Shown here in pieces: positions 14,623 to 52,462 of a stretch of DNA of 64,000 nucleotides. The notes under the pieces are model-generated. The model worked only from the letters and a program-made list of their open reading frames with translations. It was not told the DNA's origin and did not search any database. Both the position numbers and the translations under genes were made by a program. How positions within the stretch are numbered: position 1 is the first letter of the stretch; each line of letters begins with the position of its first letter. Source of the stretch: Bacillus sp. KH172YL63 (GTDB taxonomy: Bacteria > Bacillota > Bacilli > Bacillales > Bacillaceae_B); NCBI RefSeq assembly GCF_011398925.1, contig NZ_AP022842.1:1724001-1788000 (forward strand), given 5' to 3'.

Positions 14623-14732
14623 GGCTCTTTTCGCATAGATTGTTGCTATTATTTAACGCTAATATGAGCATCTCTCGCTACAATCAACCGCACCTCGCTT
14701 GTTTAAAAGCCACAATGTTGACGAAAACAGCC
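14623..14732 (+). repeat. MITE-like element, copy A (internally deleted, 110 bp)
   Basis: It has the two ends of the family (GGCTCTTTTCGCATAG on the left, the inverted GGCTGTTTTCG on the right) with almost nothing between. The flanking octamers TATTAAAA and TGTTAAAA match at 7 of 8 positions, as expected for an aged 8-bp target duplication. The inner junction is a single GAGCATCT where complete copies have two, so a deletion between these direct repeats explains it. It ends 88 bases upstream of the cardiolipin-synthase-like gene. Confidence 0.75.
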
Positions 14733-14820
14733 TGTTAAAAAAATCCATATTCCCCAGTAAAGGAATAACCCGGGCCCGGAAACCAAAGAATAACACTACA
14801 TACGAAGGTGGTGGGTTCTG

Positions 14821-16035
14821 GTGGTGAAAAAAGGGTTAATAGGCATCCTGCTGACTGTCTGTCTGTTGGGGATATTCATCGTGATCATGCACGTGGATGT
14901 GAAAAACGGGGTGAAGCAATTTGGTGAATCCCATCCCATCAGAGAAACGGCGACCCGTAACGCCGACATCAGCATCTTCAAAACCGGAGAAAGCTTCTAT
15001 GAAGCATTATTCGAAGATTGTAAGGCTGCAGAGGAACATATTTGGATCCACTTTTTCATCATCAGGGATGATTCAATTGCAAACGAGTTATTTGATCTGC
15101 TGATTGAAAAAGCCCAGAGGGGAGTCGATGTCAGATTATCGGTGGATTTTCTGGGATCGGATATTCGGGAGAGTACAGTAAAGAAACTGAGAGAGGGCGG
15201 TGTGTATGTGTTAAAAAGCAGGCCTGCAAGGATTCAAAACATCTCCTATTCCCTGCATCATCGTAACCACCGCCGGCTCATCTCCATCGATCAGCAGATC
15301 GGCTACATAGGGGGCTTCAATATGGGGGAGGAGTATTTGGGCAAAGACCCGAATCTGGGCTATTGGAGAGACTACCATCTCCGCTTGAACGGAAGCGCAG
15401 TTTATGAAATATCCAGGCAGTTCGCGATGGACTGGAAAGAAGACGGTGGCGGGCACATCCCTTATCCATTGCCGCCTGAATCACCTTTCAAAGAGTCAGG
15501 CAGCCCGGTGAAGTTCCTCTTTTCATCAGGGGAGGGGCTGGTTGATAAAACAGTCGGATGGATCAATCGGGCAGAAGAGAGCGTGACCATCACGACCCCT
15601 TATTTCATCCCCGATGAAAACCTTGTTTCTGCATTGAAGGATGCAGTGGAAAGGGGGGTGAAAGTAAATGTACTCGTACCCGATGATACAGATGCATGGT
15701 TTACAAAACCTCCGAGTTACGCCATTGAAGAAGAATTATTAACTAGCGGCGTTAACTTCTATTTATATCAAAAAGGCTTCTTTCATGGAAAAGTAATCAT
15801 CATCGATCATCAGTGGGCGGACGTGGGGACGGCTAATTGGGATTCGAGAAGTTTTCACTTGAATGATGAAAGCAATGCAATCATCCAGGATGCTGAAGTG
15901 GCCCTCAAGCTGGAAGCGTTGATAAACGAAGATATGGAAGACAGTGCGAAGCTTACGATGGAATCATTTGATCAATTACCAATATGGCAATGGGTCTTGA
16001 AAAGTACACCAGGGTGGCTTTCTTATTATTTTTAA
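14821..16035 (+). CDS. Phospholipase D / cardiolipin synthase-like protein
   Basis: 404 residues: an N-terminal membrane anchor (about 4-24) then two phospholipase D domains. Family members join two phosphatidylglycerols to make cardiolipin at the membrane. The second HKD motif is intact (HGKVIIID, with GTANWDSRSF after it). The first reads H-R-R-L-I-S-I-D, with arginine in place of the usual lysine, then GGFNMGEEY. The GTG start follows AAGGTGG; a second GTG three bases on is equally possible. MITE copies lie on both sides in the same orientation, and the stop codon is part of the target duplication of the downstream one. Confidence 0.88.
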   Translation: MVKKGLIGILLTVCLLGIFIVIMHVDVKNGVKQFGESHPIRETATRNADISIFKTGESFYEALFEDCKAAEEHIWIHFFIIRDDSIANELFDLLIEKAQRGVDVRLSVDFLGSDIRESTVKKLREGGVYVLKSRPARIQNISYSLHHRNHRRLISIDQQIGYIGGFNMGEEYLGKDPNLGYWRDYHLRLNGSAVYEISRQFAMDWKEDGGGHIPYPLPPESPFKESGSPVKFLFSSGEGLVDKTVGWINRAEESVTITTPYFIPDENLVSALKDAVERGVKVNVLVPDDTDAWFTKPPSYAIEEELLTSGVNFYLYQKGFFHGKVIIIDHQWADVGTANWDSRSFHLNDESNAIIQDAEVALKLEALINEDMEDSAKLTMESFDQLPIWQWVLKSTPGWLSYYF

Positions 16036-16270
16036 TGGCTCTTTTCGTATAGATGGTTGCTATTATTAGACGTTAATGTGAGCATCTTCAGTAATTTGAG
16101 ACTGCTTAATAAATCATCGAATCAAGGGCAATGAACCTGAATTAAATTTATCACTACTATTCAGAAGATGAATAAGCAGTTAGTTAAATTGATTTTTGGT
16201 TTTTATCTTCGATGGTTGATTCTCGCTGCAGATGCTCGACTCCTGCGGGAACTGATGGACAGGTGAGACC

Positions 16271-17793
16271 CACTGGCTTTGCATAAGTGTAAATCAATTT
16301 CAATTTAAGTAAAAATATTACAGTTTGTTTTACCTGTGGGAACAAAAAAGAGAAACTCTATATAAGATTATTGTTTGTTCCCATTTTTTGTAATATTATT
16401 TTATCATCCTTTTAACCTGTTTCTTTCTTTGCTTGACGATGAGAGCGACGGATCCAAAATCTACTTCTTTTGGAGGTTTGTCGGGGATCTTCTGCCTGCC
16501 TCTCGAAGTTCTTTTTGGTGTGTAGTCCAAGGCAGCTTGGAGGTCCCCCCATGTCCGATGGAGGTAAATCTGAATATGTCTAAGGATAGACAACATACTT
16601 TTTTGAGATTTCGTCTTCAACTTCACCATCAAAGTAAGAATATAGGTAATCATTGCGATAAACATTTGGTTCCAGATGCCTTTCGGTTTGGTACTCCAAA
16701 CATTCACAAATCTTAGAGATTGTTTGATCCACTTAAAAAATATTTCAATGATCCAACGGTTTTTATAGATGTCTGCGATCTCACTTGGCGTTAAGTCCCA
16801 TCTTGTCGTAGCTACTTTATACACTTTTCCATTCTCATCCTGATATTCCACTAATCGTACCGGCTCCATTTTCTTTTCTACACCTAATATTACTTTGGCA
16901 TCTCTTAAGATTTGATCCCGACTCCCTTCAGGGATTTCACGCTCTTCCTCGACTTGTATGCGAATATCATTCTTTAATCGAATCACGAATTTAATGTTGT
17001 TTTTAATCCATTGATTCATCCTGATTTTATCCATATATCCACGATCCATCACATAGGTGGCATCGCTTGATTCGATTAAGAATTCTCCCCCTTCATGATC
17101 TGAAGCTTTCCCGTTGAAGGGACAATTTTATCGGGATAATATACATCCGGTGAGGCCACCACCAGACGGGTGTGCATTTTGACAACGTTCCAACCCTTGG
17201 TGACATAGGCCCATTCAGACAATACAGGCGGTAGCTTAATATGGGTCGCATCAACAATATGAAGTTTTCCGATATTCGGAAGGCCTGAAAATGAGTGCAT
17301 ATAGGGCTTTAGGTTATTGAGAACTTTGAAAAAAAGAGTTTGTAGAATAGTGGTATCTAATTCGTTTATCCTTCTACTTAGTTGAGAACTACTTATACTC
17401 TCGATTCCAATGTCATTCATAAAGTCCTGGTTCGCTTGCATTTGGGTGTCAAATTCAGGATACGATCCCCATTTATCCAATTGAGCCGTAACAAAAATTT
17501 TGACTAACTGTTCAATCGAAAGCTTTTTATTATTGTAATTTAAAAGTGGACAAGCCAAACCCTCGGTAGGTAATAACGATAAACATTGACTAATGACTGA
17601 TTTTTGAGTTATCATAATGAGGTTAATTTGGTGCTCCTTTGTAGATAGTTTGTTTTTGGGAACAAACGCTCAACATATCTACAATAGGAGCTTTTTTTGT
17701 GTTTGTCTATCTATCAACGTGCCAAAAGAATAAAGAACTACAGCGCTTACTTGATATATAATTACTTTTTTTGGAAGTTACGCAAAGCCAGTG
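16271..17793 (-). mobile_element. IS4-family insertion sequence
   Basis: 1523 bp, bounded by a perfect 12-bp terminal inverted repeat CACTGGCTTTGC (16271-16282 and its complement 17782-17793). It is flanked by a 9-bp direct duplication GGTGAGACC (16262-16270, 17794-17802); the empty site is seen in the intact repeat near 52330. It encodes one transposase on the minus strand, split by a frameshift. GGGAACAAA/TTTGTTCCC hairpins lie near both ends, outside the coding part. Confidence 0.92.
16396..17615 (-). pseudogene. IS4-family transposase, frameshifted
   Basis: Two reading frames join into one DDE transposase of about 400 residues. The upstream part (17615 down to about 17095) holds the first catalytic aspartate in HIVDATHIKLP. 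The downstream part (to 16396) holds the second in YVMDRGYMD and the full IS4 signature Y-(2)-R-(3)-E-(6)-K in IYKNRWIIEIFFKWIK. Loss of one A in a short A-run near 17093-17097 breaks the frame: restoring it would read ...STGKASDHEGGEFL. It is either an inactivated copy, a sequencing error, or less likely a programmed shift, since IS4 elements normally use a single frame. Confidence 0.88.
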
Positions 17794-18031
17794 GGTGAGA
17801 CCCCGCAGGACGAAGTCCGAGGAGGCTCACCGCCATCCCCGCGGAAAGCGAGCATCTCTCGCTGCAATCAACCGCATCTCGCTTGTCAAAAAGCCACAAT
17901 GTTTACGAAAACACCCTTTTTAATAGAAATGTTTATAGGGGAGGAAAACATTTTGATTGAAAATGAAAATATGGTAAAGTGTTCTCATATATTGAAGATG
18001 TAACCACCTCTCTTAAAGAAAGGGATTGTTC

Positions 18032-18211
18032 ATGAGCGAGCTCCTGTTTATTGCTTTGTTTATCTTTTCACTGCTGGTCATGACATTTTTGAACATTTTA
18101 AAAATGAGGCATGTTTCAAAATCCAGAAAATCTGTGGCGCTCAGTATTGTTATCTTCTCATTGATCGGCATGATGCTGACCGTCTTTTTTTATCTGCCGA
18201 ACGCCTCATAA
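18032..18211 (+). CDS. Small membrane protein of unknown function
   Basis: 59 residues: two hydrophobic helices (about 3-22 and 36-55) separated by a basic loop (KMRHVSKSRKS), a typical helical-hairpin membrane protein. AAAGAAAGGG precedes ATG 18032 at good spacing. I do not recognise the family. It follows the right end of MITE copy B by about 115 bases. The 286 bases after it, up to the HAD gene, hold no convincing gene or terminator. Confidence 0.6.
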   Translation: MSELLFIALFIFSLLVMTFLNILKMRHVSKSRKSVALSIVIFSLIGMMLTVFFYLPNAS

Positions 18212-18497
18212 TGAAGAACAGACAAGGTACCAAGAGAATGGAAAATGCTAAAGGCACCGGGGAGAAGCCTCGTGTGTCTTATTTTTGTTTTCGTCAGGAT
18301 ACATATCATTATCACCCTGTCTTCACAAAGGGTGATCGGCATCATTCCAGGCGGTTCTGGTTGATAAAAAGCCCCTTCCCGTTCTGCAAAGCGGCGGAAT
18401 TTGATATGATAAGGAAATGGATAGGACAAGTCATTTAATATGTAAGAACAGATCGTTCAAAGTAGAATTGAATGACTGGGATTAAAGGAGAGTACGC

Positions 18498-19157
18498 ATG
18501 AAAGCAGCAATGATATTTGACATGGATGGAACAATTTTTCAAACGAACCGGATTCTTGAAAACGCATTACAAGATGCCTTTCAGTATCTGCGAGACCAAG
18601 GGATGTGGAAGGGGGCGGCGCCATTGGATGAATATAAAGAGATAATGGGTGTGCCCCTTCCCGTCGTCTGGGGCACACTGCTTCCCCATCACCCGGTGGA
18701 TGTGAGGAAGACGATGAACGAAATTTTTCACGAACGATTGATTGAAAATATATACAGAGGAAACGGTTCGCTGTATCCACACGCTGCTGACCTGTTTGAA
18801 TACTTATCACAAAGAGGATACCCAATTTATATTGCCAGTAATGGACAGCCCAAGTACTTAAAGGCAATCGTAGAGCATTACAGGCTGGGCAGATGGATAT
18901 CAGATTATTACAGCATCCAGAGTATTCAATCGGGGGATAAAGGTGAATTGATCCGGAGTATCAAGGAGGAACATCAACTGTCTTATGGAATGGTGATTGG
19001 TGATAGACTTTCAGATTTTATGGCGGCACACGCGAATCAGTTTCTTTCCGTCGGATGCGCATTTGATTTCTCCCAGGCACATGAATTAGCTGAAGCCGAT
19101 ATTGTTGTGGATGATTTGATTGAGGTCAAAAAGTTCTTGGAGAAAGTCAAGGAATGA
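18498..19157 (+). CDS. HAD superfamily phosphatase
   Basis: 219 residues with all four HAD motifs: D8-M-D10-G-T nucleophile, IASNGQ as motif II, the lysine in GDKGELI, and GDRLSDFMAA as motif IV. An alpha-helical cap lies between motifs I and II, as in the phosphoglycolate/beta-phosphoglucomutase-like group. The substrate is unknown. AAAGGAG precedes the ATG. The next gene's ribosome site overlaps its stop codon, so it is coupled to the NUDIX gene. Confidence 0.9.
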   Translation: MKAAMIFDMDGTIFQTNRILENALQDAFQYLRDQGMWKGAAPLDEYKEIMGVPLPVVWGTLLPHHPVDVRKTMNEIFHERLIENIYRGNGSLYPHAADLFEYLSQRGYPIYIASNGQPKYLKAIVEHYRLGRWISDYYSIQSIQSGDKGELIRSIKEEHQLSYGMVIGDRLSDFMAAHANQFLSVGCAFDFSQAHELAEADIVVDDLIEVKKFLEKVKE

Positions 19158-19171
19158 CAGGAGGGTTAGCG

Positions 19172-19798
19172 ATGGAAGACGAGAAGTTAAAAATATTTGA
19201 TGAAAACGGAAATGAGCGGGGTGCAGCAAGCAGGGCAGAAGTCCATCGCAAAGGATATTGGCATGAAACCTTCCACTGCTGGATTACCCATTTCGATGAG
19301 GCGGCAAAAGAAACCTATATTTATTTCCAATTGAGAAGTAAGGGCAAAAAGGATTATCCTGGCCTGCTTGATATCACAGCGGCAGGACACCTGCTGGCTT
19401 CAGAAACGATTGAAGACGGTGTCAGGGAGCTTCATGAAGAGTTGGGTCTAGACATTCCCTTTCATCTTCTGCAGCCACTTGGCAAGCTGAAGGGGGAACT
19501 TCATCAACCAGGCATGATCGACAGGGAAATCACCCATCTGTTCCTTTATTCAAAACCTGTCGATTATGGTGAATTTCATCTCCAATTGGAAGAAGTATCA
19601 GGCATCTTTCGGTCTACATTAAAAGATTTTAAGGACCTGCTCCTTGAAGTGATAGAGGAAATCTTCGTGGAAGGCTTTGAAATAAACGGGGAAGGGGAAA
19701 AGAAATTCCTCGGACGAAAAGTAGGGTTTCACCATTTCGTACCCCATGAAAAATCCTATTTGTTAGAAGTACATAAACGCATTTCCCAGTTTCTTTAA
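19172..19798 (+). CDS. NUDIX hydrolase
   Basis: 208 residues. The NUDIX helix is near residues 70-95: AAGHLLASETIEDGVRELHE (then ELGL), one residue shorter than the canonical G-x5-E-x7-REUxEExGU spacing but with the RE..EE metal-binding core. The N-terminal KIFDENGNERGAASRAEVHRKG resembles isopentenyl-diphosphate isomerase-like and YfcD-type NUDIX proteins. I chose ATG 19172 because AGGAGG lies 8 bases upstream. It is the second gene of a pair with the HAD phosphatase; both suggest nucleotide or metabolite house-cleaning (inference). Confidence 0.9.
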   Translation: MEDEKLKIFDENGNERGAASRAEVHRKGYWHETFHCWITHFDEAAKETYIYFQLRSKGKKDYPGLLDITAAGHLLASETIEDGVRELHEELGLDIPFHLLQPLGKLKGELHQPGMIDREITHLFLYSKPVDYGEFHLQLEEVSGIFRSTLKDFKDLLLEVIEEIFVEGFEINGEGEKKFLGRKVGFHHFVPHEKSYLLEVHKRISQFL

Positions 19799-19892
19799 GA
19801 AAGTGATTCTTCCTGCCCATGGTCATAGAGGAGTGAAAAAGGGTATGATATTCATTTAGTACATACCAATCGGTGGAAATAGGGGGACTCAA

Positions 19893-20519
19893 TTGAACGG
19901 CACAGCACATATGGCAATCGGAGCAGCAACAGGATTTACCGTGGCCAATTCATTCGGTTCAGATCCCGGCATCACAGCGACACTCGTCACGATCGGAGGG
20001 ATCTCTGCCCTTATGCCAGATATGGATATTGATGGGAAACTCAGCAACAAACTGACTTTCTCTTCCTCCATGATAAAGGCAGTGGCGCAGATCATCGGGT
20101 TTCTTATGATGGTGTACAGCTATCTTGAGGGCTTTGGAAGGGAACGATGGCTCGGCATTGGATATGGTGCCGGCATGATGATCCTTTCAGCATTCATTAC
20201 ACAAAGAAGGATGCTGACAATCACAGGTATTGGAGTGACCGCCTGCGGATGGCAGTTGGATGAAACCTGGTTATGGTTGATCGGACTATTCATCTTCATC
20301 GCTTCCTTCGTTTCTCACAGAAGCTATACCCACTCGATCCTTGGTATCCTTTATTACGGAATTGTGGCCCATTACTTAGAGGCTTCCCTCATGATAGACG
20401 GTGTATTTGAGGCGTGTGTGACAGGGTACGCAAGTCATTTGATAGGGGATATGAAATTCCTTCCCTTCAATAAAAGGGGCATCAAGCTTTTCCTTCCGTT
20501 GTCTACGAAAGAACTGTAA
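19893..20519 (+). CDS. Metal-dependent hydrolase-like membrane protein (YdjM family)
   Basis: 208 residues, TTG start with AGGGGGAC upstream. Four to five membrane helices plus conserved histidine and aspartate motifs: MNGTAHMAIG, ALMPDMDI, the central HRSYTHSILG and YASHLIGDMK. These define the YdjM/DUF457 family of inner membrane proteins annotated as metal-dependent hydrolases. Family members in enterobacteria are LexA-regulated; no such box is evident here. The true activity is not established. It is a single gene followed by the trpS leader. Confidence 0.88.
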   Translation: MNGTAHMAIGAATGFTVANSFGSDPGITATLVTIGGISALMPDMDIDGKLSNKLTFSSSMIKAVAQIIGFLMMVYSYLEGFGRERWLGIGYGAGMMILSAFITQRRMLTITGIGVTACGWQLDETWLWLIGLFIFIASFVSHRSYTHSILGILYYGIVAHYLEASLMIDGVFEACVTGYASHLIGDMKFLPFNKRGIKLFLPLSTKEL

Positions 20520-20536
20520 AAATAAGCAATTGCCTA

Positions 20537-20565
20537 TTGACCATTATTTTCCCATACATTAAAAT
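20537..20565 (+). promoter_or_regulatory. Sigma-A promoter of trpS
   Basis: TTGACC (20537-20542), 17-base spacer, TAAAAT (20560-20565), placed just before the T-box leader. Confidence 0.75.
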
Positions 20566-20569
20566 AATG

Positions 20570-20857
20570 GAAACAGTTGTATATGGATATGCAATGATGA
20601 AGAGAAGTAACCGGTCGGAATACTGAAGAGAGCTGATGGCAGGTGGGAATCAGTGTAGGAAACCCGGTGAATGGACTTCTGAGCATCCATGCCGAACATA
20701 AGTAGGCTTTGGCGGATCCGGCCCACCGATAAAAGGGCAAGTGTATCGGAGTTGAACTCCAGTACATGACAAGTGCGTTTGCGAAATTGCAAACGAATGA
20801 AGGTGGCACCACGGGTTTCTCGTCCTTTTTATAAGGACGGGGAGCCCTTTTTGTGTT
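20570..20857 (+). promoter_or_regulatory. Tryptophan T-box leader with terminator
   Basis: A classical T-box riboswitch: stem I with the specifier loop GAATGGAC, in which TGG at 20672-20674 is the Trp codon, and the T-box AGGTGGCACCACG near 20801-20813. The terminator is GGGTTTCTCGTCC/GGACGGGGAGCCC followed by T. The T-box base C after TGG would pair with a G discriminator, as expected for tRNA-Trp. Uncharged tRNA-Trp should stabilise the antiterminator and turn on trpS. Confidence 0.95.
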
Positions 20858-20886
20858 CCTGAAAACATAAAGAGAGGGGAATCGCT

Positions 20887-21879
20887 ATGAAAAAACAAGT
20901 ACTGACCGGCATCAAGCCAACCGGACGCATTCACCTGGGAAATTACATCGGCGCCATCAAACCCGCCATGAAGCTTGCAGATTACGAGACCTATGAAACA
21001 GCTTATTTCGTAGCCGATTATCACGGTCTTACAAAGATACATGACCGGGATGAAATGAAGGATCTTTCCTACGGTGTGGCAGCTGCATGGTTGGCACTCG
21101 GCCTGGATCCAGAAAGGTCGATCTTTTACAGGCAATCGGATATTCCGGAAATCTTCGAGTTAAGCTGGATACTTGCATGTTTTGCTCCGAAAGGATTATT
21201 GAACCGTGCCCATGCCTACAAATCGATCGTGGAAGAAAATGCCGTTGCCGGCCGGGAGTCCGATCATGGAGTGAATATGGGGGTGTTCACGTATCCGATC
21301 CTGATGGCCGCAGACATCCTCCTCTTTCAAACAGAATTGGTCCCGGTGGGAAAAGATCAGGTCCAGCACGTGGAAATTGCACGGGACATCGCTGAGAATT
21401 TCAATAAAGTCTACGGGGAAACATTCACTCTGCCAGAGTATGTCATAGAAGAAGATACGGCTGTCATACCAGGATTGGACGGCCGGAAAATGAGCAAAAG
21501 CTATAATAATACGATACCTCTATTTGAGGAACCGAAAAAGCTGAAGAAATTAATCAATAAAATCAAAACAGATTCTTCATTGCCTGAAGAACCGAAAGAT
21601 CCTGACACATCGATCATTTTTTCCTTATATAAAGAATTTTCAACTCCTGAACAAGCGGCTGTCATGAAGGAAAAGTATCATTCAGGAATCGGATGGGGTG
21701 AAGCCAAATCAGAGCTGTTTCAAGTGATGGATTCCTACTTAGAGAAACCAAGGTCCAGATATAACGAATTGATGGCCAATCCGCACGAAATCGACCGGAT
21801 TTTACAAAGAGGAGCGGAACGGGCGAGGGAAAAGATCACTCCATTCATGAAGGAAATCAGAGAAAGAATTGGCATGTGA
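20887..21879 (+). CDS. trpS: Tryptophanyl-tRNA synthetase
   Basis: 330 residues, the normal Bacillus length. It charges tRNA-Trp with tryptophan in the cytosol. The class I signatures are clear: TGRIHLGN at residues 12-19 (HIGH-type) and GRKMSKS near residue 200. AGAGAGGGG lies before the ATG. It is transcribed alone under its own T-box and ends at a bidirectional hairpin shared with the dehydrogenase gene on the other strand. Confidence 0.98.
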   Translation: MKKQVLTGIKPTGRIHLGNYIGAIKPAMKLADYETYETAYFVADYHGLTKIHDRDEMKDLSYGVAAAWLALGLDPERSIFYRQSDIPEIFELSWILACFAPKGLLNRAHAYKSIVEENAVAGRESDHGVNMGVFTYPILMAADILLFQTELVPVGKDQVQHVEIARDIAENFNKVYGETFTLPEYVIEEDTAVIPGLDGRKMSKSYNNTIPLFEEPKKLKKLINKIKTDSSLPEEPKDPDTSIIFSLYKEFSTPEQAAVMKEKYHSGIGWGEAKSELFQVMDSYLEKPRSRYNELMANPHEIDRILQRGAERAREKITPFMKEIRERIGM

Positions 21880-21884
21880 TCAGG

Positions 21885-21919
21885 AAAGAGCCGCATCCGG
21901 GGAAAGATGCGGCTCTTTA
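21885..21919. terminator. Bidirectional terminator
   Basis: AAAGAGCCGCATC pairs with GATGCGGCTCTTT around a short loop, between convergent trpS and the zinc alcohol dehydrogenase. Confidence 0.9.
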
Positions 21920-21920
21920 T

Positions 21921-23411: not shown

Positions 23412-23570
23412 TTCTTATCTAGAGAGGTAGAGGGACTGGCCCGACGACACCTCAGCAACCAGCCGCAGTTACAGGTATGGTGCTAATTCCAGCAAGTTGA
23501 TGTCAACTTGGACGATAAGAGGGAGAAAGAATAGACAAAACCTTCTTATTTTATAAGAAGGTTTTTTGTT
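23412..23570 (+). promoter_or_regulatory. SAM-I (S-box) riboswitch and terminator
   Basis: All the S-box landmarks are present in order: the P1 strand TTCTTATCTAGAGAGGTAGA, GGGACTGGCCCGACGA, ACCTCAGCAACCAG, GGTATGGTGCTAATTCCAGC and the closing GACGATAAGAGGGAG. A terminator AAAACCTTCTTAT/ATAAGAAGGTTTTTT follows at about 23537-23570. High SAM should end transcription before metI. This leader controls the four-gene methionine operon. Confidence 0.97.
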
Positions 23571-39542: not shown

Positions 39543-40319
39543 TTAAGATAGTTCCTTCAAAATAGACTTGACCGTATGGGACGGCGAGTTTTCGAACAGT
39601 GAGATATATTGAAAAAGTTTATTTTTGGGCAGCAGATGTTTTCGGATTTCTTTGGCCGATTTCCCCTCTGTGTAAGCGGCGGTGACGGCATCCTGAAGCT
39701 CTTGAAGGTAGTCCCGTTTCTTCTCCAGAAGCCTTCGCCCATGTTTTAAATATCCCTGATGGGAACAATATACTTCTTCAAAAGAATACGACAGCGTTTT
39801 GTTGATGGACCGTATGAGTTCCGGTACAGATTCAAAGGAGAAATTTGAGGTAGGGGAATGAAACAGGTACAGGTCCCCTGAGAAGCAAATCCCTCTTTCT
39901 TCATCAATCAAAACGATGTGGTCGTCTGCATGTCCAGGTGTATGAACAATACGAAACGAGTGATGCTTGGTTTCGAAAACGGTACCTTGAAGGGATTGTG
40001 GCTTGAAAGCAGGGCGGTTATGCCAGAACATCGCCCGGTAAAACGGGAGTCTTGTTCTTTGTACGCATTTTTCCACCCCTGACGGATGAATCCACTGGGG
40101 AATACCGTAGAAACGTTCTATCCAGGCGCTGTTGCCTGTATGGTCCTCATGATGGTGTGTATGGATGACTTGTTTCACATCAAGCTCTTTGAAGATTGTT
40201 CGTACTTCCTTTTTCATACTGAACGGTCCTGTATCCACAAGAACATCGTCGACTTGAAAGATATAGACCGGCATTTTCTGTCCAAGGGTTTGGACGTTTA
40301 ATTTAAATGGTTGTATCAC
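39543..40319 (-). CDS. MBL-fold metallo-hydrolase
   Basis: 258 residues of the metallo-beta-lactamase superfamily: H-x-H-x-D-H in IHTHHHEDHTGN, a further histidine in HTPGHADDHIVLI and the metal-bridging aspartate in CFSGDLYLF. A C-terminal helical extension (about 190-258) resembles the substrate cap of glyoxalase II-like or LACTB2-like nucleases. GTG start with AAGGAG 9 bases upstream. Substrate unknown. A gene-free 400 bases follow upstream, holding MITE copy C. Confidence 0.9.
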   Translation of the reverse strand: MIQPFKLNVQTLGQKMPVYIFQVDDVLVDTGPFSMKKEVRTIFKELDVKQVIHTHHHEDHTGNSAWIERFYGIPQWIHPSGVEKCVQRTRLPFYRAMFWHNRPAFKPQSLQGTVFETKHHSFRIVHTPGHADDHIVLIDEERGICFSGDLYLFHSPTSNFSFESVPELIRSINKTLSYSFEEVYCSHQGYLKHGRRLLEKKRDYLQELQDAVTAAYTEGKSAKEIRKHLLPKNKLFQYISLFENSPSHTVKSILKELS

Positions 40320-40415
40320 ATCAGTTACTCCTTATGAAATAGTGTTATAGTACATAATTCGGATGAAATCCCTGGATTCCTGCATGAAGTCATATTTTTT
40401 TGCTCTCTTTTAAAA

Positions 40416-40615
40416 GGCTCTCTTCGCATTTTGCTATTTTTATACGTTATGTGAACATCTTCGGTAATTTGAGGCTATGGAATGAATAATTTCCAAGCAA
40501 TGAATCAAGGGCAATGTACTTAAATTACGTTGATCACTACTATTCAGAAGATGATTAAAGCGGAAATCAACCGCATCTCGCTTCTCTAAAAGCCACAATG
40601 TTTACGAAAACATCC
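40416..40615 (+). repeat. MITE-like element, copy C (core deleted, 200 bp)
   Basis: The left half of the family sequence is kept from GGCTCTCTTCG through TCACTACTATTCAGAAGATGA, and then the sequence jumps to AGCGGAAATCAACCGCATCT and the right end (CGAAAACATCC). The nested palindromic core is thus missing. No convincing target duplication is left. It ends 105 bases before the zinc-finger gene. Confidence 0.7.
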
Positions 40616-40720
40616 GAAATGAGAGGAGGCGGCCCTGAGCATGGCTGGACAGGTTCTATTCCTGGAGGACAGAAAGTGGTAAACAGGAGGGAGACAGAAG
40701 ATTTTTTAGGGGGATTTTGT

Positions 40721-44437: not shown

Positions 44438-44470
44438 GGTAGGTACATAAAGGTAAGGCTTCAAGAGCTT

Positions 44471-44560: not shown

Positions 44561-44592
44561 GGTAGGTTGTGCTGTTTTTAAGGAGAGAATGG

Positions 44593-45390
44593 ATGCTAGA
44601 ATACAATGTTCAACAGGGAGTCGGCAAAGAATATGTAGTGTTCCTCCATGGAATCGGAGGGAACTCGAAGATTTTCTGCAAACAACTGGAAACGTTCAAA
44701 GAGTTCTATAATATTGTGACAATCCACTTACCGGGCCACGGCAGGTCTCCGGGGATCGAATCCTATCAGGAGCCGTTCACGATCGATTTGATTGTACGTG
44801 AAGTGGTCGCCGTTCTTGATGAGATCGGGATGGAAAAGGCTCACTTTGTCGGGATATCGCTGGGATCGGTGGTCATTCATGAATTGATGCAGAAAGTTCC
44901 CCACCGTGTAAAATCGGCTGTCATGGGAGGCTGCATCACCCGGTTCACGTTATTTTCAAACACACTTCTGAAAATCGGTCACGCAGTAAAGAATATTGTA
45001 CCGTTCATGTGGTTATATAAATTATTCGCATATGTCATGATGCCGAAGAGTAATCATAGAATCTCAAGGAAGCTGTTCATCCGGGAAGCCAAAAAGATGA
45101 GGCGGAAAGATTTCCTCGGATGGTATCGACTCACTCCGTATGTGAAATCAACATACGCAGACGTTCAGGAACGGGCTGCACATGTTCCTAAGCTTTATAT
45201 TTCCGGGAAAGAGGATCATCTGTTTGTCCGTTCACTCACCGAGGATACAAAGGGAGACAGCGCGGCAACGAGAGTGTTTCTTGATGGCTGCGGACATGTA
45301 TGCAATGTGGAGAAGCCTGTTGAATTCAACAAGCTGGCACTTGAGTTTTTATACAAGCATCAGGATGTATCACTGCGACAGGTTCAGTAG
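44593..45390 (+). CDS. Alpha/beta hydrolase
   Basis: 265 residues. The N-terminal VVFLHGIGGNSKIF is the oxyanion HG motif, HLPGHGRS follows strand four, the nucleophile elbow is G-I-S-L-G-S, the acid lies in ISGKEDHLF and the histidine in DGCGHVCNVEKP, all in the usual order. The cap domain spans about 130-195. Cytosolic; substrate unknown. ATG 44593 has TAAGGAGAG upstream. A terminator follows at 45394-45435. Confidence 0.9.
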   Translation: MLEYNVQQGVGKEYVVFLHGIGGNSKIFCKQLETFKEFYNIVTIHLPGHGRSPGIESYQEPFTIDLIVREVVAVLDEIGMEKAHFVGISLGSVVIHELMQKVPHRVKSAVMGGCITRFTLFSNTLLKIGHAVKNIVPFMWLYKLFAYVMMPKSNHRISRKLFIREAKKMRRKDFLGWYRLTPYVKSTYADVQERAAHVPKLYISGKEDHLFVRSLTEDTKGDSAATRVFLDGCGHVCNVEKPVEFNKLALEFLYKHQDVSLRQVQ

Positions 45391-45393
45391 CGT

Positions 45394-45435
45394 GAAACCT
45401 CCCAGGCCGGATTCGGTTTGGGAGGTTTTTCTTTT
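45394..45435 (+). terminator. Rho-independent terminator
   Basis: AAACCTCCCA pairs with TGGGAGGTTTTT around a 14-base loop after the hydrolase gene. Confidence 0.88.
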
Positions 45436-45524
45436 TCAGGATTTTGGAGGTCCGTCCCTAATTAAAGGGATAGGCGCCTTGTTGGGAGAATATTGTATAA
45501 ATAAGGTAACAAGGAGGGAGCCTT

Positions 45525-46241
45525 TTGCTTGGAGGGTTATTCGGTTTTGAAGTTGAGGGGTATGCTTTTAAGTTATTTTCGGTGTCGCACGTTGCTGCAT
45601 TGATCATCTCTGCTGGCTTGATGGTCGGTTTATATGTATACAGGTCGAGTATAAAGGGGAGTAGGAAAAGTGGAGTGAAATGGACGCTGATTACGCTTCT
45701 CTTTATGAGTGAAGCGTTCTTTCACATGTGGTACTTCGTCAACGGCCGATGGGATGTAACCATCAACTTGCCACTGCAGCTATGCTCAATCTCATTGTAT
45801 CTTTGTATGATCATGCTTTATACAAAAAGCTACCGAATCTTTGAAGTGGCATTTTTGGTCAGTATGTCAGGGGCGTTGATCGCGATTATCACACCTGAAT
45901 TATTTTTTGGGCTCCCTCATTTACGTTATTTTCATTTTTTCATCGCTCATGGCGGGATCGTTCTGTCGTGTCTGTATATGGTATGGGTAGAACGGTATAG
46001 ATTGACATTCTCTTCCGTCTTCAGGGCATTTGCTGTGCTGAATGGAATCGCACTGCTTGTATATGCGGTGAACAGGTACGTTGATGCGAATTACATGTTC
46101 CTCCTTCACAAACCCCATCACACAAGTCTGATTGATTTCCTCGGACCTTATCCATGGTATCTTCTGTCTCTCGAAGCAGTCAGCCTGATGCTGTTTTTCC
46201 TTCTGTATATGCCGTTCCATTACGTACAGAAGAGGGGATAA
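45525..46241 (+). CDS. TIGR02206/YwaF-like membrane protein
   Basis: 238 residues with about seven membrane helices, TTG start with AAGGAGGGAG upstream. LPLQLCSISLYLCMIML, the F-F-x-H-G-G-I-V region and GPYPWYLLSLEAVSLMLFFLLYMPF are characteristic of the YwaF family of Bacillus integral membrane proteins. Function unknown. It is followed after 47 bases by the plsY-like gene on the same strand. Confidence 0.82.
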   Translation: MLGGLFGFEVEGYAFKLFSVSHVAALIISAGLMVGLYVYRSSIKGSRKSGVKWTLITLLFMSEAFFHMWYFVNGRWDVTINLPLQLCSISLYLCMIMLYTKSYRIFEVAFLVSMSGALIAIITPELFFGLPHLRYFHFFIAHGGIVLSCLYMVWVERYRLTFSSVFRAFAVLNGIALLVYAVNRYVDANYMFLLHKPHHTSLIDFLGPYPWYLLSLEAVSLMLFFLLYMPFHYVQKRG

Positions 46242-46288
46242 ATGAAAAGTTCTGATCATCCCATCACTTAAGAAAGCCGGGTGTCTCT

Positions 46289-46855
46289 ATGTTGATATTG
46301 ACGGTACTCATTTTATATTCCTATATTCTGGGCAGCGTGACGGGAGCTTATTTTGTTGTTAGGATGCTCACTGGAGAAGATGTCCGGAAGCTCGGCAGCG
46401 GCAATGTCGGGGCGACAAATGCCGGCAGGATCGCAGGTAAGAAAGGTTTTTTGCTTACTCTATTGATTGATGCCCTTAAAGTGTACTTCGCTTTGTCATT
46501 GACTGCCCATTTGGCAAATGGGGAAATGTATGTCGTGTTAAGCGCCATATTCGTTATGATCGGACATGGATTTCCGGTGGTACTCGGATTTCACGGCGGT
46601 AAGGGGGTCGTGGTATATTTGACAACTGCCTTGATTTTTTGCCCATGGAGCATCGTCATCTTTTCCCTTGTCATGGGGAGCCTCTATTTAATCATAAGGA
46701 GGTATAAGTTCTCAGGATTTGTTTCCATGGCTTCTATCCCTTTGACAGCTTATATGATGGATGGGTCACTTATCATGTTCTCAGGATTAGCGGCTCTATT
46801 CTTCATCATGCTGCTTTTGCATAAACGTTCCATACTTCAACCGCTGAGTCCATAG
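46289..46855 (+). CDS. plsY: PlsY-like glycerol-3-phosphate acyltransferase
   Basis: 188 residues, five membrane helices. Three PlsY loops are present: LGSGNVGATNAGR, the GHGFPVVLGFHGGKGV loop that binds the acyl phosphate, and a shorter third one. PlsY acylates glycerol 3-phosphate, the first step of membrane lipid synthesis. Bacilli normally have plsY near parE/parC; no such neighbour is here, so this may be a second copy. The ribosome site is weak (GCCGGGTG). It ends at the hairpin 46906-46962. Confidence 0.85.
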   Translation: MLILTVLILYSYILGSVTGAYFVVRMLTGEDVRKLGSGNVGATNAGRIAGKKGFLLTLLIDALKVYFALSLTAHLANGEMYVVLSAIFVMIGHGFPVVLGFHGGKGVVVYLTTALIFCPWSIVIFSLVMGSLYLIIRRYKFSGFVSMASIPLTAYMMDGSLIMFSGLAALFFIMLLLHKRSILQPLSP

Positions 46856-46905
46856 GAAATGAAACTGGGAAGCATGGCTGTCAAGTAAGGTCTTTCAATA
46901 AAAAA

Positions 46906-46962
46906 TAAAAATCCGATCGATTTCGGATCCATCTGTGGATTTCGAAAACGATCGGATTATTA
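46906..46962 (+). terminator. Terminator, ATCCGATCG stem
   Basis: AAAATCCGATCG pairs with CGATCGGATTATT; an inner GGATCC/GGAT fold lies in the loop. It sits between the convergent genes ending at 46855 and 47012. Confidence 0.8.
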
Positions 46963-47011
46963 TATAGATAAACCATAATTACATTATGTAAACTTCGCTA
47001 AATTTTATTCC

Positions 47012-47353
47012 TCATTCATTTAAATGGGTCGGATAAAACCTGCCATTGAATCCGACTGCCTGAATATGGTGGATGTCTCCGGATTCTTTTATACTCTCGT
47101 AACGTCCATTGACCTCAACCGTAAATATGCCTTCGGAGAAAGCAAGGGGTTCTGTGGCAACCAGGATATATGGGAGGCTGGTTCCATCGCTGGATTCACC
47201 CGTTAGTATCGAACAATCTTCATTACACGATAAGGAATATTCTTTCCTCAGCCATTCTGCATATTCATCCTGAGTCGGTTTGTTGAGGATCGTGACGGCA
47301 GCGAGCATGAAGCCCGTTGCAAATAAAAAGAGGAAAGTCCACTTGAAGCTCAT
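47012..47353 (-). CDS. Membrane-anchored or secreted small protein (DUF4359-like)
   Basis: 113 residues: an N-terminal hydrophobic segment (about 5-24) and then LNKPTQDEYAEWLRKEYS, which resembles the NP(S/T)xxxYxxW motif of DUF4359 proteins. The rest is a small beta-rich domain with two cysteines (SLSCNEDCSIL) that could form a disulfide outside the cell. GGAGACGATG lies before the start. Function unknown; assignment tentative. Confidence 0.6.
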   Translation of the reverse strand: MSFKWTFLFLFATGFMLAAVTILNKPTQDEYAEWLRKEYSLSCNEDCSILTGESSDGTSLPYILVATEPLAFSEGIFTVEVNGRYESIKESGDIHHIQAVGFNGRFYPTHLNE

Positions 47354-47542
47354 CGATCATCGTCTCCTTGTGACGTATTTTAATATCTTGATAGTGTGAG
47401 TGTATCACAAATTACCGTGGTGGTAGCGGAAAACGACGGAGGAATATGAACATTCATAGGGCAAAGAAGACAGGAGATAAAGCATGTTTCCTTTTAATCT
47501 ATTAAAAAAATGAGGTTGGGACAAAACGGTGTTCGTCAATAG

Positions 47543-47592
47543 AAAATCCGAACGAGTGATTTATCATAAATCTACTTCGTTCGGATTTTTTG
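47543..47592 (+). terminator. Terminator, ATCCGAACGA stem
   Basis: AAAATCCGAACGA pairs with TCGTTCGGATTTTTT, with an inner ATTT/AAAT pairing. It stands alone in a gene-free region of 350 bases, 5' of the palindromic repeat and not directly behind any gene. Confidence 0.8.
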
Positions 47593-47701
47593 TGCTGTCA
47601 CTTCTTATATGTATGTAGCAGGTTCCAGCTGTTGATTGGAGTGCAAGGCGGAGACTCCTACGGGAAAAGCGGGGTAGGTGAGACCCCGCAGGAGCGTCAG
47701 C

Positions 47702-49370
47702 GAGGCCACTGATAATATGCCGATTATAAAAATTTAATGAGTGTTTTAGAACAAAAAAAGAGTGGATCTTGGGATTTCTATCCCAAGATCCACTCTTTTC
47801 CTTTGTTTATTCTTACTTTTTGTCATTTATTAGTTTTATGATTCGTTTGATATTTACCGCGAAGATGGAAGTGGCGCCTTGTATTTGCATACCTAATAGA
47901 CCCGCGGCGTGGGCTTTATTGTACCCGTGTCTATTTTTAAGTTCACTATTCTTAGCTTCTATTTTATATCGGGAACGTGCGAGTTCTTTGAACTCTTCAG
48001 AATGTTGGAAGCTCTCGTGCTCCGAATGTTCCTTTGACTTAATGGTCAGAGAGTAGCTCTTTGTCTTCGCCCCTTCTGTGTAACACCCCTCTCGTATCGG
48101 ACACTTTTACATTTTTCTATGTCCCAATAGAACTTAATTCTTGTGTTGCGATTTTTATCTCTTTTAATGTGCCCGTCGTTTTTAGACAAATGGCCTGCCG
48201 GGCACATATATCGCCCTGCATCTTTATTATAAATAAATTTGTCGTCTTTTCTTGTGCCATTGGTTATAAGTGGATGTAGCTTAGAAACGAGCTTGAATTT
48301 TTCTTTATTGGCATAAATGATGTTCTCTTTTCGAGTAAGCTGTGTCACCAATAACCGCCTCAATTTCCACCCCGTTGTTTTTCGTTTTTCCAATTAAGTC
48401 TGGAAGATAGTTACCATCCGATTTTTCGCCTGAAGTAATAATGGCCGCAGTGATAATTCTTTCATCCGAAAGGGCAAGATGGGTCTTATACCCAAGGAAA
48501 GAATGGTCTTCAGATTTGTGTCCGACTCTCGCATCTGGATCTGTTGAAAAATGGGTATTATGTTTACTATCTTCAACAGCTTCTTTTAATACGTTCATTT
48601 TTTCCCTTCACGGAAGGTACTTTAGCGATTGTTGGAGTTTGTTCAATCACGGACACTAACTGTTCGGTGTACGCGAGCTCTTCTTGGAAGCCCCCACCGA
48701 CTGGTTTACTGGGGAAGTGTTCTTTCATCTTTTCATCATATTCGAAAATTGTCTTACGAAGCTTTTTGGACAGTTCTTGTAAGTGTTGGGTAGCTGACTT
48801 AGCGTTATAGCGGGAAGTGGAATGGGTGGCGTCTATGATAATAGATTTTCCTAATAAAAGATTGTGTTCAAGTGCTATTTCAACGGTCTTCCCGATTAAT
48901 AAATCAAGTAAATTCATATCCTTAATACGCAACCGGCGGAATTTAGTAAGAGAACTTGGATCAATAACTGGATCCTCTGGGGCCATATCGAGGAAATACT
49001 TAAATGACAGATCGTATTGAGCGCGTTCGACAACATCGACATCTGATAAGTTATAAAACACTTTAAGTAAGAGATATTTGAACATACGAATGGGTGGTAT
49101 GGCGTTTCGGCCATGATCGATACTATAATTCGTTTTCAGTTCGTCCAAGATAAACGAGAAATCAACCAGTTCTTTCGTTTGTCTAAGTAGGTTATCTTTG
49201 GGACGACAAGGTTGTATAGCTCGTTGTAAGGACTTAAAATAAACTCTTCTTGTTTTGATAACATTAAGAACACCACCTATTCACTAATGTTTTCATTATA
49301 ATAAAACAGTTATACATGCTTCATAAAAATGAAGCATGTATAACTGTAAAAAGACTTTTTCAGTGGCCTC
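47702..49370 (-). mobile_element. IS1182-family insertion sequence, decayed
   Basis: 1669 bp with 11-bp terminal inverted repeats GAGGCCACTGA (47702-47712 and complement 49360-49370) and a 9-bp target duplication AGCGTCAGC (47693-47701, 49371-49379). A 19-bp hairpin (arms 49306-49347) lies near the transposase start, and a terminator GAGTGGATCTTGGGA with its complement at 47753-47799 lies after its end. The transposase is destroyed by frameshifts. Confidence 0.9.
47813..49264 (-). pseudogene. IS1182-family transposase with several frameshifts
   Basis: Pieces in different frames join to one protein of about 480 residues: MLSKQEEFILSPYNELYN at the start, then ...IPPIRMFKYLLLKVFYNLSD, IIDATHSTSRYN (first acidic residue), GYKTHLALSDERIITA, the AVIGDTAYS stretch, and the C-terminal KIEAKNSELKNRHGYNKAHAAGLLGMQIQGA. 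I place single-base indels near 49196, 48608, 48330 and 48100. An intact copy elsewhere could still mobilise it through its ends. Confidence 0.9.
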
Positions 49371-49508
49371 AGCGTCAGCGACGAGGAGGCTCACCGCCGC
49401 CCGAGGAAAGCGAAGCCTTGCACGGAAATCAACAGCGGCATATCAAAAAATAGCATTTTTTATAGTTCGTATTTTGAGTAGGAGAGCATAGTGATGTCCC
49501 AGCCTTAT

Positions 49509-50765
49509 TCATTGTGGTTTTGACGTAAGAGGAAGCTTGATTTTAACGACCGTCCCCTTATTCAGTTCACTTTCATATTCAATCATCCCGCCCATTTCAC
49601 GGACGAGCTTATTCGTGACCATACTGCCTAAACCTGTCCCTTTGGTTTTGGTTGTATAAAAAGGTAATCCGATTTTCTTTAGTTCATCCCCGGTCATGCC
49701 TTTTCCGTTATCGGTTATGATGATGATGATGGAATGGGGAAATAGATCTTCTTTTAGCGTTATATTGATTTCCCCATGTTGTTCGATTGATTCGATGCCA
49801 TTTTTGATCACATTCATGATGGCTTGTTTAATATGATCTTCATCACCTTTTATATAGTTGCTCCCAGATCCGTCAAATATAATCGATGTCCCTGAATAGG
49901 AAGCGAAGGGACTGAGAAGATCAACACAGTCCTGAATGATGTTCTCAAGATTCAAGGTCGATAATTGAGAGCCGCTTGGCTTTGCCACACTCAGGTAGTC
50001 GGTGATGATTTTATTCGTCCGGTCCAACTCAGTTAAGATGAGGGGAGAGTATTTTTTTAATTGTTCGTCTTTCGTGTCTTCGCTCAAATGCTGGATGAAT
50101 CCCCTGACGGTCGCCAGTGGATTACGGATTTCGTGAGCAATGGATGCTGCCATTTGCCCCACCATATTCAACTTGTCCAGATACACCATTTCTTCTATTT
50201 GTTTATTCGTCCGGATCAGGTGTTCAATGATGAAAACGAGAGCGATAAACGTAAAATAGAAAATAGTAAAATATGTAAAGTAGAATGGTAGATGAAGAAT
50301 CGGTATGAAAATATTAATAATGATCACGTAAATCAACGTATGAAAGAGAAAGATGAACGTAGAGACAATTAACTTATATTGTGTGTTCAGTAGCTTTTTT
50401 CGAAAGAGGACTCCGATTACAAATGCCAATATGGAAACAGCGATGCCCACCGTCACATATGGTCCGCCAATTAAATAACGGAAGATGATGACACACGTAA
50501 GAACCATCGATCCCGATAATAGCCCGGCATAAATGGTCACAATCAAAATGGCGATCATCCTTAGATCAAAATGGGTCTCACCCAGTGTTTCAATGGGATA
50601 TAACATACACAACAAAGCACCGAATGAAGCGACAAGACCATATGTAATCTTGTGTTTGAACGGGGCTTCCTTCTTTTCTTTAAATGGAAATAATACGTTG
50701 GCATTATAAGTAAATGAAAACAATATCGTAATATTGACCAATAGAGATTTGATTAATGTAATCAA
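49509..50765 (-). CDS. Sensor histidine kinase with 5TM-LYT-like membrane domain (KinB-like)
   Basis: 418 residues. The N-terminal third has five to six membrane helices of the 5TMR-LYT kind, without PAS or HAMP. The HisKA box is SIAHEIRNPLATVRGF with H211, followed by ATPase motifs N (NVIKNGIES), G1 (DNGKGM), F and G2 (TKGTGLGSMV). KinB-like kinases of this form feed the sporulation phosphorelay, which is plausible here because no response regulator gene is adjacent. I chose a TTG at 50765 because TTGGAGGAT lies directly upstream. Confidence 0.9.
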   Translation of the reverse strand: MITLIKSLLVNITILFSFTYNANVLFPFKEKKEAPFKHKITYGLVASFGALLCMLYPIETLGETHFDLRMIAILIVTIYAGLLSGSMVLTCVIIFRYLIGGPYVTVGIAVSILAFVIGVLFRKKLLNTQYKLIVSTFIFLFHTLIYVIIINIFIPILHLPFYFTYFTIFYFTFIALVFIIEHLIRTNKQIEEMVYLDKLNMVGQMAASIAHEIRNPLATVRGFIQHLSEDTKDEQLKKYSPLILTELDRTNKIITDYLSVAKPSGSQLSTLNLENIIQDCVDLLSPFASYSGTSIIFDGSGSNYIKGDEDHIKQAIMNVIKNGIESIEQHGEINITLKEDLFPHSIIIIITDNGKGMTGDELKKIGLPFYTTKTKGTGLGSMVTNKLVREMGGMIEYESELNKGTVVKIKLPLTSKPQ

Positions 50766-51184
50766 AGAAAATCCTCCAAAACCTGATTTGCCTAAGAACA
50801 CCAAACGTTCCCAGCCTTTACAAAACATGTACATACAACTAATAAAAATACTTCATTTTTCCCTATTAGTCAAATCCTAACACTGACTGAGGGACGGACC
50901 TTCATTTGTGGATTACAATAAAAGGAAATTATATCTCTAAAGTCAGTATTAAAGCGGTTTCTTATGAGTATAGCAAACTTATTGGGAGTGGGGTGTAGAG
51001 GTTTAGAGAGGTCCGTCCCTCTTCTTTGGAAGGAATTATGTGGTGGGGGAGAGAATATAGTAGGTAATACAAGCTTTTGCTGGGTTTTGATTTTGTGTGG
51101 TGTTTTACATATAAAGGGTGAACTTTCGGTGTGGAGGGGTTGTGTGCTGCTGTCACGGAGAATGATTGATTGGGGAGGAGAGGG
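50766..51184. other. Divergent intergenic region with paired AGGTCCGTCCCT motifs
   Basis: 419 bases between the kinase gene (minus) and yitT (plus). No gene is supported. AGGGACGGACCT at 50890-50901 and its inverse AGGTCCGTCCCT at 51009-51020 could pair across 107 bases. The promoters of both genes must be here but are not clear to me. Confidence 0.5.
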
Positions 51185-52093
51185 ATGAGAATGATAGAGG
51201 GACAGGTCATGAATGAGCGGCAGCAGGTCAAGGTGATGCATAAGAAGATTCCCCTGAATGAGGTGCTGAAAAGGGCTTTTCTGATCACAATAGGTGCTGT
51301 GATCATGGCGGTGGGTCTGGAGATTTTTCTTGTGCCCAACCAGGTCATTGACGGGGGCATCGTCGGGGTTTCCATCATGCTGTCCCATCTGAGCGGAATG
51401 AACCTCGGTCTCTTTATCTTCGTACTCAACATCCCCTTTTTCTTCATCGGTTATAAACAAATCGGAAAGACCTTCGCTTTATCTACATTATACGGAATCA
51501 TCGTCTTATCGGTATCCACCACTTTTCTGCATCCAGTTGCAGCATTTACACAGGATATTCTGCTCGCTTCATTATTCGGTGGGATTGTCCTCGGAATCGG
51601 GGTTGGTCTTGTGATCCGTTATGGCGGTTCACTTGACGGTACGGAAATCCTAGCCATCCTATCGAGTAAAAGACTGCCATTTTCCGTAGGTGAAATCATC
51701 ATGATCGTCAATCTTTTCATCCTAGCTTGTGCAGGTTTTGTGTTCAGCTGGGACCGTGCCATGTATTCCCTTCTTGCGTATTATGTTGCCTTCAAGATGA
51801 TCGACATTACGATCAAGGGGCTGGATGAGTCCAAATCGGTATGGATCATCAGTGAGAATCATGAGCAGATCGGCGATGCCCTCCTTCATCGATTGGGGAG
51901 GGGGGTCACCTACTTGAAAGGGGAAGGGGCTTTCTCCGGGGATGATAAGAAAGTGATATTCTGCGTGATTACAAGATTGGAAGAAGCGAAGCTGAAAGAC
52001 ATTGTCGCAGAACATGATCCTTCTGCCTTTCTCGCCATCGCCGATATTGCAGAAGTAAGAGGGGGTAGATTTAAGAAGAAAGATATTCATTAA
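51185..52093 (+). CDS. YitT family membrane protein
   Basis: 302 residues. Five to six membrane helices (about 28-195), then a cytosolic DUF2179 domain (about 215-300: SKSVWIISENHEQIGDALLHRLGRGVTYLKGEGAFSG and VIFCVITRLEEAKLKDIV). NQVIDGGIVGVSIMLS and GGSLDGTEILAIL are family hallmarks. Transported substrate unknown. ATG 51185 is six bases after GGAGG; the ATG at 51191 is also possible. A MITE copy lies 25 bases after the stop. Confidence 0.92.
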   Translation: MRMIEGQVMNERQQVKVMHKKIPLNEVLKRAFLITIGAVIMAVGLEIFLVPNQVIDGGIVGVSIMLSHLSGMNLGLFIFVLNIPFFFIGYKQIGKTFALSTLYGIIVLSVSTTFLHPVAAFTQDILLASLFGGIVLGIGVGLVIRYGGSLDGTEILAILSSKRLPFSVGEIIMIVNLFILACAGFVFSWDRAMYSLLAYYVAFKMIDITIKGLDESKSVWIISENHEQIGDALLHRLGRGVTYLKGEGAFSGDDKKVIFCVITRLEEAKLKDIVAEHDPSAFLAIADIAEVRGGRFKKKDIH

Positions 52094-52118
52094 ATTTGCA
52101 CGGCTGTTTTTAAAAAAA

Positions 52119-52462
52119 GGTTCTTTTCGCATAGATTGTTGCTATTAGATGTTAATGTGAGCAACTCCAGTAATTTGAGACTGCGTAATAAATCAATGAA
52201 TCAAGGGGAATGTACTTGAATTAAGTTTATCACTACTATTTAGAAGATGAATAAGCAGTTAATTCCGTGGATTTTTGGTTTTTATCTAGGATGGTTGATT
52301 GGAGCGGAAGATGCTCGACTCCTGCGGGAACTGATGGACAGGTGAGACCCCGCAGGACGAAGTCCGAGGAGGCTCACCGCCATCCCCGCGGAAAGCGAGC
52401 ATCTGTAGCGGAAATCAACCGCATCTCGCTTGTCTAAAAGCCACAATGTTTACGAAAACAGC
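52119..52462 (+). repeat. MITE-like element, copy D (complete, 344 bp)
   Basis: Left end GGTTCTTTTCGCATAGATTG, right end the inverted GCTGTTTTCGTAAACATTG, giving imperfect terminal repeats of about 28 bp. Both sides carry TAAAAAAA (52111-52118 and 52463-52470), an 8-bp target duplication. It contains the undisturbed palindromic core at 52293-52420, which shows the empty site of the IS4-family insertion in copy B. No protein is encoded. Confidence 0.85.

Follow-up and report, generated by a model that had tools for sequence, protein, structure and literature searches.

The 64,000-nucleotide stretch of the Bacillus sp. KH172YL63 chromosome analysed here (the window, positions 1724001-1788000 of a single-contig genome of 4,251,700 bp; all coordinates below are window positions) carries four copies, A to D, of a short dispersed repeat. 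Our analysis suggests, with a probability of roughly 93%, that these copies are non-autonomous miniature inverted-repeat transposable elements (MITEs) of the IS1595 family, that they are moved in trans by an IS1595-type transposase, that about one third of the insertions lie at the T-tract of a terminator, and that the interior is composite and includes a captured hairpin. In the mechanism that we propose, the MITE would keep two ends, near GGCTCTTTTCGCATAGATTGTTGCT and GGCTGTTTTCGTAAACATTGTGGCT, for recognition by an IS1595-type transposase, and this enzyme, supplied in trans, would cut its target with an 8-bp stagger and so duplicate an AT-rich octamer. About one insertion in three sits in the T-tract immediately past a terminator-like hairpin; the T-tract being copied by the duplication, termination would probably be kept, and such a site might therefore act as a safe harbour for the element. 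The interior joins a left half, unmatched among the foreign matches listed, to a 126-bp hairpin near the right end that also occurs as a dispersed repeat in its own right.

A preliminary description of the stretch had set out a MITE-like family with ends of about 28 bp and 8-bp target duplications. Its coordinates for all four copies stand, and so do its octamer duplications, perfect at copies B and D and matching at seven of eight positions at copy A. The number of four copies holds for the window but not for the family, which is far larger. When compared with its own genome, copy D gave 40 scored matches out of 120 first-look candidates (loci were taken for 30), and the end pattern, with up to two mismatches allowed, occurs 96 times as against 0 for the same pattern read backwards. 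A pairing script that was given the window together with 70 fetched loci, 71 sequences in all, resolved 47 distinct end-bounded elements; copy C was missed by the script and is outside this count, whereas at least one pairing that is probably spurious (L034:651-2836) was kept in it. The 8-bp duplication is perfect in 16 of the 47 elements (0.9% with permuted flanks) and has at most one mismatch in 28 of them (5.7% with permuted flanks), and on the strength of the counts of ends and of duplications we rejected chance repeats as an explanation. When the 28 full-length copies of this genome are reduced to a consensus, its terminal inverted repeats match at 22 of 28 positions, and the outline of a MITE-like family with ends of some 25-28 bp was borne out. 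Searching with copy D and with its ends, as the preliminary description had advised, showed the family to be high-copy, and the ends were found in 47 of the 61 related genomes. The comparison of empty sites that it had also recommended could be made for copy B, whose site is vacant in 12 of the 12 relatives examined (L180-L191; seven short matches, L192-L198, were left out): each has the orthologous gene and recognisably the same downstream sequence, with no IS1595-type end. One element of the genome, L032, has such ends at a length of 813 bp, is flanked on both sides by ATTTCAAA, and carries a lipoprotein-like frame without any transposase.

The preliminary description had stated that the repeat encodes no protein and must be moved by an outside transposase. 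The first part fails for copy B, in which a 1523-bp IS4-type insertion sequence (IS) is nested, but the need for an outside transposase remains. A full transposon with the same kind of ends, which was to be looked for, is present in the same genome: L031 is a 1521-bp element whose ends lie 1.5 kb apart around an IS1595-family transposase, and IS1595 is one of the four families (with IS6, IS256 and IS66) that had been left unranked. L031 is bounded on both sides by AAATAGAA, and because this 8-bp duplication is perfect the element must have moved at some time. Its frame reaches 204.8 bits against the NCBIfam model IS1595 (NF033547, cut-off 75) and 59.6 bits against Pfam PF12762 (cut-off 27), and its N-terminal zinc domain 41.5 bits against NF050000 (IS1/IS1595, cut-off 28); the score of Pfam PF12760 on this transposase was below its cut-off, and a comparison with solved structures gave no meaningful match, three hits at E 0.14-0.15 being to unrelated proteins. 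The IS1595 domain has a single match in the whole genome, that in L031, and 23 of 25 positions in the left end of the MITE agree with the L031 end that lies on the transposase side. The nearest ISfinder-style name in the list of 120 homologues of the transposase is ISBsm2 of Bacillus smithii, at 61% identity.

Relatives of this transposase are encoded at 77 loci in named foreign genomes. At 35 of them both the ends (up to four mismatches) and an 8-bp duplication (up to two mismatches) are found, bounding elements of 1133-2488 bp; the duplication is perfect in 29 of these 35 elements and the octamers are AT-rich at each position. An extra frame of at least 60 amino acids occurs in 30 of the 35, of varied kinds and not all of them likely genes; when frames were chosen from these elements, 5 of 10 passed a Pfam cut-off, as a metallophosphoesterase, two acetyltransferases, DUF6882 and a helix-turn-helix protein, and PADLOC gave no match for five passenger or cargo proteins. 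Among the 61 related genomes a transposase match is found in 21, many of the matches being fragments with stops, and three genomes hold 358, 294 and 200 ends (G008, G033 and G002, respectively) without a transposase match. The most heavily populated one, G028, has 476 ends, for which the IS1595 connection would account, and an orphan repeat family is in this way tied to a transposase family. We sampled G028 through 60 loci around the first 63 of the 71 listed zero-mismatch ends, 8 loci remaining unpaired, and the duplication is perfect in 32 of the 59 paired elements, as against 0.4% with permuted flanks. Two arrangements in G028 may be recorded here: at L239:396-784 two miniature elements adjoin, 8 bp apart, as if the second had used the target duplication of the first, and the elements at L243 and L260 sit in sequence resembling the end of another element.

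Many flanks of the elements show a GC-rich stem-loop with a run of T's after it. The position of the elements relative to terminators was evaluated with a simple scanner of our own making, which calls a junction when a hairpin followed by a T-tract scores at least 12; as controls we took AT-rich octamers of the same loci that lie in no open frame. Terminator-like junctions were called for 17 of the 47 own elements, compared with 4.6% of 1257 controls, for 11 of the 35 foreign transposase-bearing elements against 5.7% of 3705 (10 of 34 when L105 and L107, whose near-identical flanks represent one site twice, are counted once), and for 18 of the 59 G028 elements, whose interior differs, against 2.1% of 822. 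Shuffling the flanks with the last 12 bases kept gave a mean of 0.45 and a maximum of 2 junctions per 47 elements over 60 rounds. Since the transposase-bearing elements show such junctions too, the effect follows the transposon family rather than this particular MITE. It is tempting to go further and to propose that this group of IS1595 transposases picks terminator T-tracts, by way of the hairpin or T-tract DNA or of the terminating transcription complex; MITEs would then amass at operon ends, in hundreds of ends per genome, the duplication rebuilding the upstream T-tract, and in one lineage a conserved structured hairpin would work at 3' ends. We put this forward tentatively, as a proposal with clearly less than even odds; if true, it would describe a transposition target tied to the ends of transcription.

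Several observations weigh against our interpretation, first of all as regards the driver. The right end of the MITE matches either end of L031 equally well, at 22 of 25 positions. The transposase gene of L031 has its first 35 or so residues in another frame than the rest, which places a frameshift near the N-terminus; the longest homologues among those listed are mostly of 335-336 amino acids. The resident source is, as assembled, probably not alive, although the frameshift may stem from sequencing error or recoding. In an alignment of the transposases (L077, L081 and L107, which contain stops, were left out) the first two catalytic aspartates align in the close relatives of L031:1202-2062 (minus strand), but the residue at the third acid position is a histidine in these close relatives (NNFHNRLK), a glutamate standing there in the distant L145 alone. 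IS1595 subgroups vary at this third catalytic position, and the close relatives with the histidine still show clean element duplications. Moreover, 42 of the 77 foreign loci fail the test for ends and duplication, many of these loci being fragmentary or truncated where a contig stops. The figure of 35 of 77 comes without a permuted control, and since the score that selected the best pair at each locus took the duplication into account, it is tilted toward good duplications. Finally, the 28 full-length own copies have a mean pairwise identity of 88% (range 81-95%), so most of them are not recent.

Could another family, such as IS6, IS256 or IS66, drive the repeat, the likeness to IS1595 being secondary? 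An 8-bp duplication with GG-starting ends fits several transposase families, the resident IS1595 gene is frameshifted, and the zinc domain of L031 also passes the IS256-named model NF048018 (41.8 bits, cut-off 27). Against these points, the repeat agrees with the IS1595 elements, both here and at the 35 foreign loci, in its ends, in the polarity of the left one and in its duplications, and we consider a different driver very improbable. IS6, IS256 and IS66 were set aside on the ground that these ends were found together with a transposase of the IS1595 type, no search having been aimed at those three families.

The terminators are open to a more serious objection, for their enrichment could result from selection instead of target choice. 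According to this alternative, which we rate at only a little under an even chance, the elements would insert into any AT-rich DNA, and copies behind terminators would survive as harmless. It draws on the octamers of the 35 transposase-bearing elements, AT-rich throughout, and on the fact that most junctions have no terminator by this scanner (30 of 47, 24 of 35 and 41 of 59 in the three sets). It draws further on the gene contexts at 30 own loci: by rough frame calls, these are tandem in 22 cases, convergent in 6 and divergent in 2, and 28 of the 30 lie past the 3' end of at least one flanking gene. The control positions within a locus are not independent, and Fisher values, which treat them as if they were, carry no weight here. 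On the other hand, the AT-rich non-coding controls, which should be about equally harmless, show terminators at just 2-6%, and the association recurs with three different interiors.

Returning to the IS1595 MITEs as such, their interior appears to be of two origins. All foreign matches to copy D among the rows listed begin at position 154 or later, mostly spanning 176-344, and the left half of the interior has no match in another genome among these rows. The right part holds the 126-bp imperfect hairpin, hereafter the core, which was detected in 55 of the 61 genomes searched, including two (G003 and G026) without detected ends, and which in the own genome also lies outside paired ends, in other contexts. 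A core match occurs in just 2 of the 59 paired G028 elements, and the core is for this reason not needed for movement. Its occurrence in other genomes and in contexts without ends makes it most likely that the core is an older repeat which the MITE took up. In the full-length own copies the core is 96.9% identical to their consensus, the left body 90.2%, and the two ends 92.6% and 94.1%.

The core alignments were made from hand-chosen copies (26, 27 and 35 rows). Across the 35 chosen copies 98.0% of the cells pair and 14 of the 30 pairs have changed on both sides, values which none of 500 shuffles reaches, and sliding the partners abolishes the pairing; a single alignment served both to predict the structure and to count the pairs, which favours the unslid version. 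One may then ask whether the core is itself the functional or mobile unit, acting at the 3' ends of genes as a putative structured RNA or as hairpin DNA, with the IS1595 ends as its vehicle. The paired changes, the stronger conservation of the core relative to the left body, and its presence without ends in G003, G026 and elsewhere in the own genome would be consistent with such a role. The shared origin of the structure and the counts speaks against it, as does the dispensability of the core for movement in G028, and conservation with covariation may also be obtained by gene conversion or hairpin-templated repair; we regard this possibility as unlikely, although less so than a different driver. 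Selection on structure, gene conversion or hairpin-templated repair can each produce the pattern, and the conserved unpaired bulges would disfavour a pure repair toward a perfect palindrome.

No Rfam 15 family reached its gathering score on the element, the best sub-threshold one being mir-2576 (25.7 bits against 83, E 0.11), so that a described Rfam family was rejected for the core. The core gave no match in a phage collection and matched 14 plasmid records of Bacillales, and a literature search with a sequence word of the core returned unrelated work alone. Being so widely distributed, and without a match in Rfam 15 at gathering score, the core is a candidate for RNA work; together with the terminator preference, the captured covarying hairpin is the part of our analysis that merits follow-up. 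Other arrangements of the core were also seen. In a second context, at L162-L168 and window 47540-47720, a hairpin resembling a terminator (CGAACGA..TTCGGATTTTTT) is followed by GTTCCAGCT and by a variant of the core in which stem pairs are altered. At L156:870-1540 of the own genome a segment that holds a terminator-like hairpin together with a variant of the core stands twice in tandem behind a tuf-like gene, as judged by eye. In G026 the core forms tandem arrays, of 226 bp x 4.6 copies (L229:909-1959) and 238 bp x 4.9 copies (L230:925-2069), and its clustered cores, by eye, lie mostly to the left when on the minus strand and mostly to the right when on the plus strand.

The elements described here have in common with the IS1595 family its transposase, inverted ends and AT-rich 8-bp duplications. 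According to PMC8101967 the family is usually flanked by 8-bp duplications, and PMC12561309 gives 8-bp repeats, preferably A/T-rich, for ISApl4 of the IS1016 subgroup; the available parts of these two sources mention no terminator preference for the family. Unlike the family's transposons, the window repeats have no transposase of their own, and the elements of this subgroup often carry a further frame and have the histidine at the third acid position. As MITEs they are typical in being short, in lacking a transposase and in sharing their ends with an autonomous element, and L032 fits the idea of a mobile insertion cassette, in the terms used in PMC6542083; they differ from MITEs and cassettes in that their interior is composite and contains a covarying hairpin which is also dispersed separately. 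According to PMC6542083 and PMC2267715, bcr1-bcr18 and the Bhal-1 and Bhal-2 repeats of B. halodurans are likewise high-copy, mostly intergenic stem-loop repeats of Bacillaceae. The bcr repeats, which PMC6542083 describes as having a TTTAT motif and as confined to the B. cereus group, were rejected by description, the duplications here being variable and the ends and the core occurring in 47 and 55 of the 61 genomes. Bhal-1 and Bhal-2 were compared by their published description, and the core may equal one of them. TnGBS-like elements and ISKra4-group ISs are similar in that a DDE transposase is combined with insertion tied to a transcription signal, but PMC3942029 concerns Mutator-type transposases and sigma-A promoters, in contrast to IS1595 and terminators here. 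Searches of open-access literature for MITEs of IS1595, for targeting of terminators and for repeats dispersed in Bacillaceae gave, among the papers listed, no title or abstract describing this family.

The features of the window are collected in Table 1.

Table 1. Coordinates, in window positions, of the repeat copies, their target duplications, the hairpin core and the nested insertion sequence
Feature	Position	Strand	Remarks
Left target duplication, copy A	14615..14622	.	TATTAAAA
Copy A	14623..14732	+	110 bp, shortened internally
Right target duplication, copy A	14733..14740	.	TGTTAAAA, 7/8 compared with left
Left target duplication, copy B	16029..16036	.	TTTTTAAT
Copy B	16037..17916	+	Full-length element split by nested IS
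Left 9-bp duplication of nested IS	16262..16270	.	GGTGAGACC, within hairpin core
Nested IS4-type IS	16271..17793	-	1523 bp, 12-bp matching ends CACTGGCTTTGC
Nested IS transposase gene, part	16396..17052	-	DDE_Tnp_1, Pfam PF01609
Nested IS transposase gene, other part	17076..17615	-	IS4 model NF033592, 57.8 bits, under cut-off 115
Right 9-bp duplication of nested IS	17794..17802	.	
Right target duplication, copy B	17917..17924	.	TTTTTAAT, identical to left
Copy C	40416..40615	+	200 bp, degenerate left end, shortened internally
Partial core, other context	47540..47720	+	Behind terminator-like hairpin; no IS1595 ends by eye
Left target duplication, copy D	52111..52118	.	TAAAAAAA
Copy D	52119..52462	+	Near full length
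Hairpin core of copy D	52294..52419	+	126 bp, imperfect hairpin
Right target duplication, copy D	52463..52470	.	TAAAAAAA, identical to left

Copy B starts one base past the stop codon of an upstream gene (14821-16035), whose product would, judging by HKD motifs read by eye, be cardiolipin-synthase-like; the left octamer of copy B spans this stop codon. The transposase gene of the IS nested in copy B is apparently split into two separate frames, and in L033, which is another copy, an IS that has DDE_Tnp_1-type frames forms the interruption. The flanks of copy C differ from each other (TTTTAAAA and GAAATGAG) and show no target duplication; by eye, this copy lies (window 40319-40645) between divergently read frames, directly 5' of a GAGGAGG ribosome-binding-like site, and it may influence the downstream promoter. 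The right boundary of copy D is ambiguous by one base, and an end at 52463 would reduce its duplication to seven of eight positions. Rfam places T-box leaders at 20585-20830 and 52601-52820 and a SAM riboswitch at 23412-23521, the second T-box beginning 138 bp past the end of copy D.

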